Shown piece after piece: positions 5,786 through 23,901 of a stretch of DNA of 39,787 bases. Position 1 is the first letter of the stretch. Every line of letters starts with the position of its first letter. Both the position numbers and the translations under genes were made by a program. The stretch comes from Candidatus Parcubacteria bacterium (GTDB lineage: Bacteria; Patescibacteriota; Patescibacteriia; PEXW01), in assembly GCA_003597955.1 (NCBI GenBank), contig QZJU01000001.1, positions 1 to 39,787 of the forward strand, read 5' to 3'. The notes beneath the pieces are model-generated. The model saw nothing but the letters and a program-made list of their open reading frames with translations, did not search any database and was not told the origin of the DNA.

Positions 5786-6165
5786 GGTTTAGTGATTGGG
5801 TTATGAAATTTTTTTCGCAAAAGCGCCAAGCGCTTGGGATCGACTTCATCGAGAGCGTCCAAAAACTTCGCCAGAGCAAGATCGCCATAGCCTTCCAAAA
5901 GTTGGTTAAAGGTTTTGGCCACGGTTTGCTTAACGAATTTCTCTTTGGGCAAAGCGGCTTCGTAAAAATATGTATTATTTTTTAAACGCCGGCGAAGAAT
6001 GCCTTTATCAGACATTCTTTGCATGACCGTCATGACGGTTGTGTAAGCGCAATGCCGGTTAAGTCGGTCCAGCACCCCCCTGACTGTAATTGGGCTTTTT
6101 TGCCAAATGGTTTCTAGGATGGCGCTTTCCAGCTCGCCTAAGCCAGGCAATGATTTCCTGCTCAT
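5782..6165 (-). CDS. BlaI/MecI/CopY-family repressor
   Basis: 127 residues. A winged-helix DNA-binding domain (about 8-75: ELESAILETIW..., TTVMTVMQRMSDKGIL) is followed by a helical dimerisation tail, the normal size for the family. BlaI is inactivated by proteolysis through BlaR1; CopY is released by metal. No CxC metal hook like that of CopY is visible, and a protease gene follows with a 4-nt overlap, so the BlaI mode fits better. It is the first gene of the copper operon and should repress the promoter 37 nt upstream, where the family's TACA/TGTA palindrome is found. Confidence 0.9.
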   Translation of the reverse strand: MSRKSLPGLGELESAILETIWQKSPITVRGVLDRLNRHCAYTTVMTVMQRMSDKGILRRRLKNNTYFYEAALPKEKFVKQTVAKTFNQLLEGYGDLALAKFLDALDEVDPKRLALLRKKFHNPITKP

Positions 6166-6191
6166 AATTTGACAAAGTAAACTAAAAACTA

Positions 6192-6230
6192 CCTACTACA
6201 AAGTGTAGCAGGTTTAAAAAATCCAAGCAA
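6192..6230 (-). promoter_or_regulatory. copper operon promoter with BlaI/CopY-type operator
   Basis: Reading the minus strand, -35 TTGCTT (6225-6230) and -10 TACACT (6202-6207) are separated by 17 nt. An inverted repeat at 6192-6212 (CCTACTACA-AAG-TGTAGCAGG, 8 of 9 pairs) overlaps the -10 box. Its core TACA-N3-TGTA is close to the TACAnnTGTA box bound by CopY and BlaI relatives. A repressor there would block RNA polymerase directly. Confidence 0.8.
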
Positions 6231-6251
6231 GTCCCCTGTTTGAATTAGAGA

Positions 6252-7757
6252 TTATTGCCTGGTAATCGTGAAGACATGAATGTGTTTTAAGGCGGCGATA
6301 GCCAAATTTAGGCGGCTCTGGCTGCTGGCATAGCAAGTGTATAAAGCCTCGCCTGCCACGACTTTCTCGTGCAATCGCTTTTTTAAATGCAGACCTCCGA
6401 CTTTGTCTTCGGGTGCGCCCAGAGAACGCGCTAATTCGTCAATCGCGCGATTGTTAATCCGGGTCACGACACCGCCGTGCTTGGCATAAACCCGAAACCT
6501 TTTAGCGCCTAATGTCACATCTTCGGAATCCAAGCTTGGCCTGCCGCCCTGGCTTTTAATAATCCCCTGCATGGCTTTCCAAGCTTTACCGGAAACTAAT
6601 TGGTCCCGAGCCACGCTCGACCCTGTGCCTTTGCGAGCCACGCCAATCAGCTCAATCAGCATGCCCGCCAATTTCAAAGCTTTTTCTTCTAAGTCTTTCG
6701 GCCGATATTCTTTCTGCTGCAAAACCCGCAAAACATCCCGGGCTTCCAAGGCCGGCCCCACGCCTTTGCCGATCGGTTCTTTGGCTTCAATCATCGCTAC
6801 TCGAATTTTTATATTGAAGCGCCGGCCCAGATAACGAAATTTCGCCGCCAACCTTTTTGCCGAAGCCAAATCGGGAATTTTCGTGGAATCACCATACGGC
6901 ATATCCACGACCAAATGCGTGATACCCATGGCGACTTTCTTGGCCATAATGGAAACGATCATTTTGGAATACGGTTCCAAAGACAAAGGCCTCGAAACTT
7001 TAATAATCCGATCGTCAGCCGGCGCCAATTGCAAGCCTCCGCCCCAGACCAAGCAAGCATTATTTTTTTTAACGATTTTTAAAATTCTGTCTACCGGAAA
7101 AGCCACTGGCGCCAGCACTTCCATGGTGTCGGCCGTGCCTGAAGGGCTGGTAATGGCCCGGGAAGAAGTTTTGGGTATGCACACGCCAATGCTGGCGATT
7201 ATCGGCACCACGATCATGGTGGTACGGTTTCCGGCTAAACCGCCGACGGAGTGCTTATCCGCCACTATCTTTCTTTTAAAGCGAATTTGCTCCCCGTTTA
7301 AAGCAATCGCCTTGGTTAGATAATAAAGTTCGTCATTGGAATATTCCCGCACAAAACTGGAGGCGACGAAATAAGTCAGTTCAGTGGTGCCAAAGCGATT
7401 ATTGATGATGTCTTTGACGACGGCGTCGAATTCCGACTGATTCAGCTTTTTGCCCAAAAGCTTCTTTTTCACAGCTTCAATTGAAAGGGGTCGGGCAAAA
7501 GGTGAAATTTCCACGGCTTGCTGAGGTTGGATTCGGTTTTCTTTCCAGACTTCCCGAAACAAACCGATCTCGCCCGGTCGAACTCGCCGGTGGGTTAAAT
7601 CTGCCTGAACAATAATTTTCCGGCCGTCGCTTTGCAAAACCAAACGATCGCCGGCGCGGATGCCGAACCTCAGCCCGTCTTCGTTGCGAATCACCACGAC
7701 GAAAGGCTGACCGCCAGTGCTGAAATCAAAACGTTTTGCGCGTAAAACAAAAGCCAT
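6252..7757 (-). CDS. deoA: AMP phosphorylase (thymidine phosphorylase family)
   Basis: 501 residues. Catalyses phosphorolysis of AMP (and other nucleoside monophosphates) to the free base and ribose 1,5-bisphosphate. The length and the extra N-terminal domain (about 1-85, MAFVLRAKRFDF...) match the archaeal-type AMP phosphorylase rather than bacterial thymidine phosphorylase (about 440). The phosphate-binding segment ADKHSVGGLAGNRTT and the SSRAITSPSGTADTMEVL stretch are typical of the family. In archaea and some CPR genomes the product feeds R15P isomerase and form II/III RuBisCO; neither is in this window. The gene stands alone, cut off from the genes upstream by a terminator and with its own promoter very close to the ATG. 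Confidence 0.9.
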   Translation of the reverse strand: MAFVLRAKRFDFSTGGQPFVVVIRNEDGLRFGIRAGDRLVLQSDGRKIIVQADLTHRRVRPGEIGLFREVWKENRIQPQQAVEISPFARPLSIEAVKKKLLGKKLNQSEFDAVVKDIINNRFGTTELTYFVASSFVREYSNDELYYLTKAIALNGEQIRFKRKIVADKHSVGGLAGNRTTMIVVPIIASIGVCIPKTSSRAITSPSGTADTMEVLAPVAFPVDRILKIVKKNNACLVWGGGLQLAPADDRIIKVSRPLSLEPYSKMIVSIMAKKVAMGITHLVVDMPYGDSTKIPDLASAKRLAAKFRYLGRRFNIKIRVAMIEAKEPIGKGVGPALEARDVLRVLQQKEYRPKDLEEKALKLAGMLIELIGVARKGTGSSVARDQLVSGKAWKAMQGIIKSQGGRPSLDSEDVTLGAKRFRVYAKHGGVVTRINNRAIDELARSLGAPEDKVGGLHLKKRLHEKVVAGEALYTCYASSQSRLNLAIAALKHIHVFTITRQ

Positions 7758-10651: not shown

Positions 10652-10764
10652 TTGACCCCGCACCACTTTCCAGTCAAATGCCGTTAGTGTTTTAAGATAT
10701 TCAACCTGGCAAATATCTTATAACTTTTTTAAAGTTTTATTTGGAAAGTGGTGCGGGGTTGACT
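10652..10764. repeat. palindromic repeat element, copy 1
   Basis: An 18-bp perfect inverted repeat (ACCCCGCACCACTTTCCA at 10655-10672, complement at 10742-10759) encloses two smaller hairpins: TAAGATATT/AATATCTTA (10693-10701 with 10712-10720) and AACTTT/AAAGTT (10722-10727 with 10731-10736). The outer ends differ: TTGACCCCGC on the left and, read inwards on the other strand, GTCAACCCCGC on the right. The same two ends occur in the element at 23783-23833. It resembles REP/RAYT-type palindromes or a miniature inverted-repeat element; no transposase is present in the window. Confidence 0.75.
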
Positions 10765-10787
10765 TTTTATGAAGACTGTGTTAATTT
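10759..10787 (+). promoter_or_regulatory. promoter of the plus-strand island, -35 inside the repeat element
   Basis: TTGACT (10759-10764) forms the right end of the palindromic element; 17 nt later is TAATTT (10782-10787), a weak -10 preceded by TGT (extended -10 type). The response-regulator gene starts 43 nt downstream. Confidence 0.5.
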
Positions 10788-10829: not shown

Positions 10830-11207
10830 ATGTCTAAGCAAAGCCAACCAAAGGTTTTGATCATCGACGATGAACCGCTTCTGCAGGAAAGTGAAGCGGA
10901 ATTCGCCAAACTTTGCGGTTATGACACGGTCTGCGCGACCAGCGCGGACGAGGCAATACACCTATTTTTAATCCAAGGACCTTTTAAATTCATTGTCTGC
11001 GACTTCGACCTGCATGGGTTAAGCGGGGTGGATTTGGCCGTAAGGATTCAAAACATGGCTAACAATAAATGCCCGCGAATAATCATGACCTCGGGTTCTC
11101 TCCAGCTTTTACATGATGCCATTGAAAGATCGGGGCTTAGAGTTTTCAAAACTTTTGGCAAGCCTTACGACGCCCAGGAGTTTATGGCGGCTCTCGAGCC
11201 CTACTAA
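10830..11207 (+). CDS. stand-alone response-regulator receiver
   Basis: 125 residues, one CheY-like receiver domain with no output domain. The acidic pocket is D13-D14 (LIIDDEP), the phosphorylated Asp is D58 (IVCDFD), the switch Thr is T87 (IMTSGS) and the conserved Lys is K111 (FGKPYD), so phosphorylation should work. AAGGAG lies at a normal distance before the ATG. No histidine kinase is nearby. It is followed after 20 nt by a membrane protein gene, and the pair probably forms one transcript. Confidence 0.92.
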   Translation: MSKQSQPKVLIIDDEPLLQESEAEFAKLCGYDTVCATSADEAIHLFLIQGPFKFIVCDFDLHGLSGVDLAVRIQNMANNKCPRIIMTSGSLQLLHDAIERSGLRVFKTFGKPYDAQEFMAALEPY

Positions 11208-23434: not shown

Positions 23435-23707
23435 TTAATCGATTAAACTGCCGTTTTTAAAGCGCCTTCGGACAGAACCATTGGTTGATTCCACAGTAAT
23501 GTGGTTGGTTTCGGCGCCAAAGGTCTTGGTAAAATCCTTAAGTATTAATTTTACTTTTTCGGCTTGGGCCGGTGAATGCACCAAGATTTTACACTTATTT
23601 TTATTTTTTAGAGCCTCCGTAATACTTAAGATCACTTGTCGGTGCCATTTCGGCCTGCCTCGATCGAGGTTAAAAAATTTTGGTTTACGGCGATTTTTAG
23701 TTGCCAA
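23435..23707 (-). CDS. 90-residue basic protein of unknown function
   Basis: The start is TTG; there is no ATG in the frame, and GGGAGG lies about 11 nt upstream, a rather long spacing. The N-terminus is basic (ATKNRRKPKFFNLDRGRPKW), the middle looks like an alpha-beta fold (KCKILVHSPAQAEKVKLILK) and the end is charged (GSVRRRFKNGSLID). No family recognised; nucleic-acid binding is possible from the charge. It has a near-consensus promoter and a strong terminator, so it is a single-gene unit. Its -35 box is the end of palindromic element copy 2. Confidence 0.68.
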   Translation of the reverse strand: MATKNRRKPKFFNLDRGRPKWHRQVILSITEALKNKNKCKILVHSPAQAEKVKLILKDFTKTFGAETNHITVESTNGSVRRRFKNGSLID

Positions 23708-23758: not shown

Positions 23759-23787
23759 AGTGTAAACGGAAAATAAAATTCTGTCAA
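23759..23787 (-). promoter_or_regulatory. promoter of the 90-residue gene, -35 inside the repeat element
   Basis: Minus-strand TTGACA (23782-23787), 17 nt, TACACT (23759-23764). The -35 hexamer is made by the outer end of the palindromic element (GGGGTTGACA). Confidence 0.75.
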
Positions 23788-23833
23788 CCCCGCACCACCC
23801 TGCACCATTTCGGTGCAGGGTGGTGCGGGGTCA
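23783..23833. repeat. palindromic repeat element, copy 2
   Basis: A 20-bp perfect inverted repeat (ACCCCGCACCACCCTGCACC at 23787-23806 and its complement at 23812-23831) with a 5-nt loop ATTTC. The first 12 bases of the arm equal those of copy 1 (ACCCCGCACCAC). The ends differ in the same way as in copy 1 but swapped: GTCAACCCC on the left, GGGGTCAA on the right, so the two copies lie in opposite orientation. Confidence 0.8.
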
Positions 23834-23901
23834 AAAATCCTAAAGCCATCATCAAAACCGCCGTTTCCCAAAAACTGGAAAACGCTTTGAGGCCTTAAAA
23901 A

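Follow-up and report, generated by a model that had tools for sequence, protein, structure and literature searches.

Bacterial mobile elements are usually viewed as breaking or creating promoters. The Rickettsia palindromic elements are palindromes of about 100 bp, some of which lie inside coding sequence. The Correia repeat enclosed elements of Neisseria are MITEs with promoters at their ends (PMC2649163; PMC10969869). REP palindromes are small repeats which are thought to be mobilised in trans by RAYT (Y1) proteins, and some of them are found inside genes (PMC3733652), while ISDra2, an element of the IS200/IS605 kind, inserts 3' of the pentanucleotide TTGAT (PMC2806898). Our search of the literature, which had few subscription papers in its scope, returned no report of the palindrome family described here. 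We place it with the MITE-like elements as a new variety, and we give a probability of about 75% to the reading that it is a non-autonomous element whose insertion target is the −35 hexamer and which generates a second copy of TTGAC, so that the core promoter is retained and the DNA upstream of it is displaced.

The window, that is the whole stretch of 39,787 nucleotides which was analysed, starts at the first base of contig C5 of a 990-kb patescibacterial genome (G000, the host genome). The initial annotation had noted two palindromic copies with unlike ends in it, each with a promoter-like sequence on one side, and we found both copies to be real, with a predicted promoter at each (TTGACT-N17-TAATTT for copy 1 and TTGACA-N17-TACACT, on the minus strand, for copy 2). 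Copy 1 is a 105-bp element on the plus strand (10655..10759) with perfect 18-bp arms (10655-10672 and 10742-10759) separated by approximately 69 nt, and a TTGAC is found at each of its ends (10652-10656 and 10759-10763). The upstream TTGAC (10652..10656, +), putatively one copy of a duplicated target and presumed to be the original −35 box, is positionally aligned with the native TTGAC of the empty site in a genome of the same genus (G001, the congener). The downstream copy gives TTGACT (10759..10764, +), the −35 hexamer of a predicted promoter; in the congener (L173), which has no element here, the corresponding hexamer is TTGACA. After a 17-nt spacer follows the predicted −10 hexamer TAATTT (10782..10787, +), then TTTCAGGAA, which is common to the host and L173, and then the gene for a response-regulator receiver domain protein (10830..11207, +; PF00072, E = 8.5e-12).

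Copy 2 belongs to a short subfamily and is a 45-bp perfect hairpin element (20-bp hairpin) on the minus strand (23787..23831). Its putative upstream target copy is TTGAC at 23830..23834 (−), and its downstream copy, TTGACA (23782..23787, −), is the −35 hexamer of a predicted promoter with a 17-nt spacer and a −10 hexamer TACACT (23759..23764, −). Downstream lies a 90-aa ORF without a Pfam match (23435..23707, −; TTG start at 23707). At the orthologous site in the congener (L243), TTGACA is found with a −10 box about 17 nt away and without the element. Written in a single reading direction, both copies take the form TTGAC-CCCGC...GCGGGG-TTGAC, and the unlike ends correspond to one half each of a direct repeat of TTGAC. 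Folding z-scores were −8.2 for copy 1 and −10.9 for copy 2. The sequence ACCCCGCACCAC was found exactly four times in the window, and seven times within 2 mismatches vs 1.97 expected.

The repeat family is dispersed through the host genome, as had been proposed from the two window copies. A genome-wide search gave 61 exact occurrences of ACCCCGCACCA vs 2 for the reversed control, and pairing of arm ends gave 40 elements with the terminal inverted repeat 5'-(A)CCCCGCACCACTTTCCA. These fall into two size classes with the same outer arms, one of ~105-113 bp, which includes most copies and has an 18-bp inverted repeat, ACCCCGCACCACTTTCCA, and one of ~45 bp. Eight long copies at unrelated loci share 90-97% identity over 107 bp, which marks them on sequence grounds as young copies which have recently dispersed; the remaining copies share ~60-80%. 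In the congener there are 16 paired elements, many of which carry the variant arm CCAGCACC/GGTGCTGG, with both sides changed together. Across the two genomes, arm positions 1-18 are paired in 92-100% of copies with a sharp fall at position 19, and two-sided changes which keep the pairing were found at positions 2, 5, 16, 17 and 18.

A further 68 loci with the same end pattern were found, mostly in other Patescibacteria and also in some Omnitrophota, Nitrospirota relatives and others. These include distinct families which have only the outer 11 bp in common and have other flanks (TTTAC, TGCTC). The family has the features of a MITE: a short size (45-113 bp), terminal inverted repeats (arms of 18-20 bp), no coding capacity, and both recent dispersal and presence/absence polymorphism. 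An Rfam search of the sequences matched only tRNA and rRNA, and no RNA family for the element. We also observed a related family of ~110 bp whose centre has a GGCGAAGCCGC-like motif and whose right flank is GGGGT-GCTCA instead of TTGAC (L079, L080, L084, L094, L113 and others), the hosts of which are Harrisonbacteria, Liptonbacteria, Jorgensenbacteria and relatives of Moranbacteria. At L033:2900-3070, L050:3372, L041:6070 and L064:641-773 we found relatives which share the arms of the element but are longer or have one end only, and whose interior consists of repeated units rich in GTTGTGG/CCACAAC.

We examined whether TTGAC belongs to the element. Among seven near-identical copies of the same subfamily, TTGAC was found at one end of the interior in four and at the other end in three; an eighth near-identical copy has TGTACA-N17-TATAAT, another predicted promoter, on one side. 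The two flanks covary, a left TTG going with a right TTGAC (16/0) and a left TTT with a right TTTAC (7/1; P = 2e-5), and this association was also found without the copies in pilin genes (P = 0.001). The left flank was other than TTG in 5 of the 21 TTGAC-ended copies (TTA, TAA, TAG or ACA), which may reflect either decay or looser targets. The variable end and the covarying flanks together argue that TTGAC is most likely a duplicated target, as is typical of MITEs, rather than a −35 box which the element brings with it. The duplication would be of 4 bp (TTGA, with an element of the form CCCC...GGGG) or 5 bp (TTGAC), both of which fit the sequence.

The same observations bear on a second reading, in which the elements would be single-strand elements of the HUH (Y1) type, of the IS200/IS605 or REP/RAYT kind, inserting 3' of TTGAC or TTTAC, with TTGAC also as the right cleavage site and with hairpin ends recognised in trans by a Y1 enzyme. 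Strong hairpins with compensatory arm changes are in keeping with such a mechanism, as is the resemblance of the target to the TTGAT of ISDra2, which also inserts 3' of its target (PMC2806898). However, a built-in right end should fix the orientation of the interior and leave no target duplication, yet both orientations occur (4 vs 3) and the flanks covary, and these fit an HUH element with its own right-end cleavage site less well than they fit a duplicated target. Compared with REP, BIME and REPIN sequences, which are likewise small palindromic repeats but are 20-40 bp long and carry GTAG or CGTC as a tag at one of their ends, the elements here have no tag, longer arms and direct repeats of TTGAC (or flanking TTTAC). 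The IS200/IS605 elements are similar in their specific pentanucleotide target and end hairpins, and differ in having an orientation fixed to the target and a linked Y1 or TnpB gene.

The initial annotation had also pointed to a REP-associated Y1 transposase, and this stood only in part. Three Y1_Tnp genes are present in the host genome, and others in the congener. None of these three genes was flanked by the element, nor were any of the 30 Y1 loci inspected in element-bearing genomes (0/30); a Y1 match was absent from 13 of 36 element-bearing genomes, and the presence of Y1_Tnp across relatives does not track that of the element. The sole exception was one locus in Zixibacteria, where a Y1 gene lies 8 bp from ACCCCGCACC palindromes; this locus and the Y1_Tnp genes of the host and congener speak for the HUH reading. 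On this evidence we rejected Y1_Tnp as a linked mobiliser, and we consider the HUH reading as a whole possible but doubtful. No TnpB-like gene was found in the flanks of the 68 loci or in the inspected viral-contig matches, nor was an autonomous relative or a transposase which shares these ends and could be the parent element, and the paired-end pattern itself was not found in viral contigs. GIY-YIG endonucleases were rejected as mobilisers, as most such genes in the host genome have no adjoining element and none was found near the 68 outside loci. The arms had also suggested integron attC sites, which we rejected as no core site pattern was seen by eye. It should also be noted that all three Y1_Tnp genes of the host contain a hairpin inside the reading frame, 3' of the HUH motif (L058:1760-1825, L059:1537-1570 and L060:1352-1473).

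To return to the MITE-like element with a duplicated TTGAC target, we compared orthologous sites at which the host genome or the congener has a TTGAC-ended element and the other is empty. There were 8 such sites, with the congener sites L180 and L211 left out of the comparison. Five are empty in the congener (both window copies, C3:18338, C17:25056 and C20:9290) and three are empty in the host and occupied in the congener (L179:3623, L204:4353 and L252:5688). All 8 empty alleles already have TTGAC and a −10 box at the same place with a spacer of ~17 nt (15-17), the exceptions being a spacer of 16 at C17:25056 and a choice of 15 or 17 for copy 2. At the site of copy 1, for example, TTGACA-N17-TAGTTTTTCAGGAA in the congener corresponds to TTGACT-N17-TAATTTTTCAGGAA in the window. 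The promoter sequence downstream is often conserved between empty and occupied alleles (e.g. CGTGTTATTTTTGCAATTACT) and is plainly orthologous in several cases, while the left junctions could not be aligned base by base because the congener is only ~74% identical. Insertion rather than loss is the presumed origin of the polymorphism between these two genomes; the outgroup G003 has a different gene order at copy 1 and was uninformative there.

We scored the association with promoters by orienting copies by their TTGAC end and searching for the simple −10 consensus TAnnnT 16-18 nt downstream. In the host genome 21 of the 40 elements end in TTGAC, and TAnnnT was found at this distance in 20 of these 21, at exactly 17 nt in 14. 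By comparison, it was found at 50 of 133 other intergenic TTGAC sites (Fisher P = 3e-7), at 12 of 525 coding TTGAC sites and at 5.4% of random intergenic positions. The corresponding counts were 8/8 in the congener and 9/12 in other lineages, giving 37/41 over the three genome sets with a sharp peak of spacing at 17 in each, and the base following TTGAC was A in 28 of the 41, completing TTGACA. These counts are biased toward functional promoters, as only intact TTGAC ends were scored and copies which do not serve a promoter could lose the motif by drift; all seven TTGAC-ended young copies, which have had little time for drift, have a −10 box. An ORF start was found within ~110 nt of 18 of the 21 host copies. 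The promoters at the element ends, which are predicted from sequence, may well be active.

This family-wide orientation of the TTGAC end toward a −10 box and a gene agrees with the initial annotation, which had proposed, from the two window copies, that one end of the element forms an outward TTGAC and that each insertion could create a promoter on that side. Such an element would be comparable to the Correia elements or to IS ends bearing an outward −35 box. The direct contact of TTGAC with the element in copies which face a −10 box would favour promoter creation. However, since the empty alleles already have −35 and −10 boxes, the −35 box was not brought by the element at the 8 sites compared, and promoter creation is refuted there; TTGAC is also not confined to one end of the interior, and it varies together with the opposite flank. 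We regard promoter creation as improbable for the family. One part of it is left: in the five copies in which the upstream flank is not TTG, the downstream TTGAC could have improved a weaker −35 box. The Correia elements remain the closest known system in their working, and are similar in being short with terminal inverted repeats, many intergenic copies and promoters at their ends. They differ in that their promoter sequence is element-borne, whereas here the −35 box is an apparent duplicated target and the −10 box is that of the host, and the arms are not obviously related.

Least probable, in our estimate very much so, is an immobile palindromic operator or insulator upstream of the promoters of a regulon, for which the strict placement just upstream of −35 and the compensatory conservation of the arms could be cited, but which is at odds with presence/absence in congeners, with the near identity of 107-bp copies beside unrelated genes, with the use of one set of arms in elements of two lengths, and with the absence of a common function among the downstream genes (response regulator, BipA, ribosomal L21, peptide deformylase, asparaginase, phosphoribosyltransferase and unknowns).

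The preferred reading, insertion of a MITE-like element into −35 hexamers, would work as follows. An enzyme acting in trans, which may be of the DDE type or another, would insert the element at TTGAC, the −35 box of a sigma-70-type promoter, and the target would be duplicated (4-5 bp) so as to leave TTGAC on both sides. The copy nearest to the −10 box would still serve as the −35 box with the 16-18 nt spacing retained, and the DNA upstream of −35, including any upstream element or regulator site, would be shifted ~45-105 bp away. Insertions in genes, or at sites not repaired in this way, would be eliminated, and those in promoters would persist because the core promoter is preserved. The presence of housekeeping genes downstream (BipA, ribosomal L21 and peptide deformylase) is what would be expected if insertion spares the promoter. 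With somewhat less confidence, we think it probable that mobile palindromes targeting the −35 hexamer are widespread in Patescibacteria, and that the TTGAC duplication, by self-repair of the core promoter, permits sites upstream of essential genes and replaces their upstream regulatory DNA. If so, an element which both targets and restores −35 could spread in a small, gene-dense genome without death of the host, and genes would be repeatedly severed from upstream control. The element may also serve as a sequence-only promoter marker for uncultured Patescibacteria, in which few transcription starts have been mapped.

Some elements were found in coding sequence. In this they resemble the Rickettsia palindromic elements, from which the family differs in that most of its copies lie at promoters, outside genes. 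Several type IV pilin-like genes (L047:3458-8555, on host contig C16, and L057:6704-6916, on C20) have the element as their 5' end; the start codon lies inside it, and its right arm AAAAGTGGTGCGGGGTTTAC encodes KSGAGFT of the GFTLIE motif. This arrangement is kept in the congener (L235), where both arms have changed together (CGC/GCG to AGC/GCT). In the pilin cluster, a GIY-YIG endonuclease gene lies between two element copies, intact at L047:4410-4904 and broken at 5863-6360, and the L047 pilin genes have a copy resembling their own leader directly at the stop codon. Another element-like palindrome (L038:3236-3339; G000:C4:85235) has coding sequence as its right arm: a 16-bp arm upstream of an epimerase gene shows complementarity to the codons of the VTGGAGF motif.
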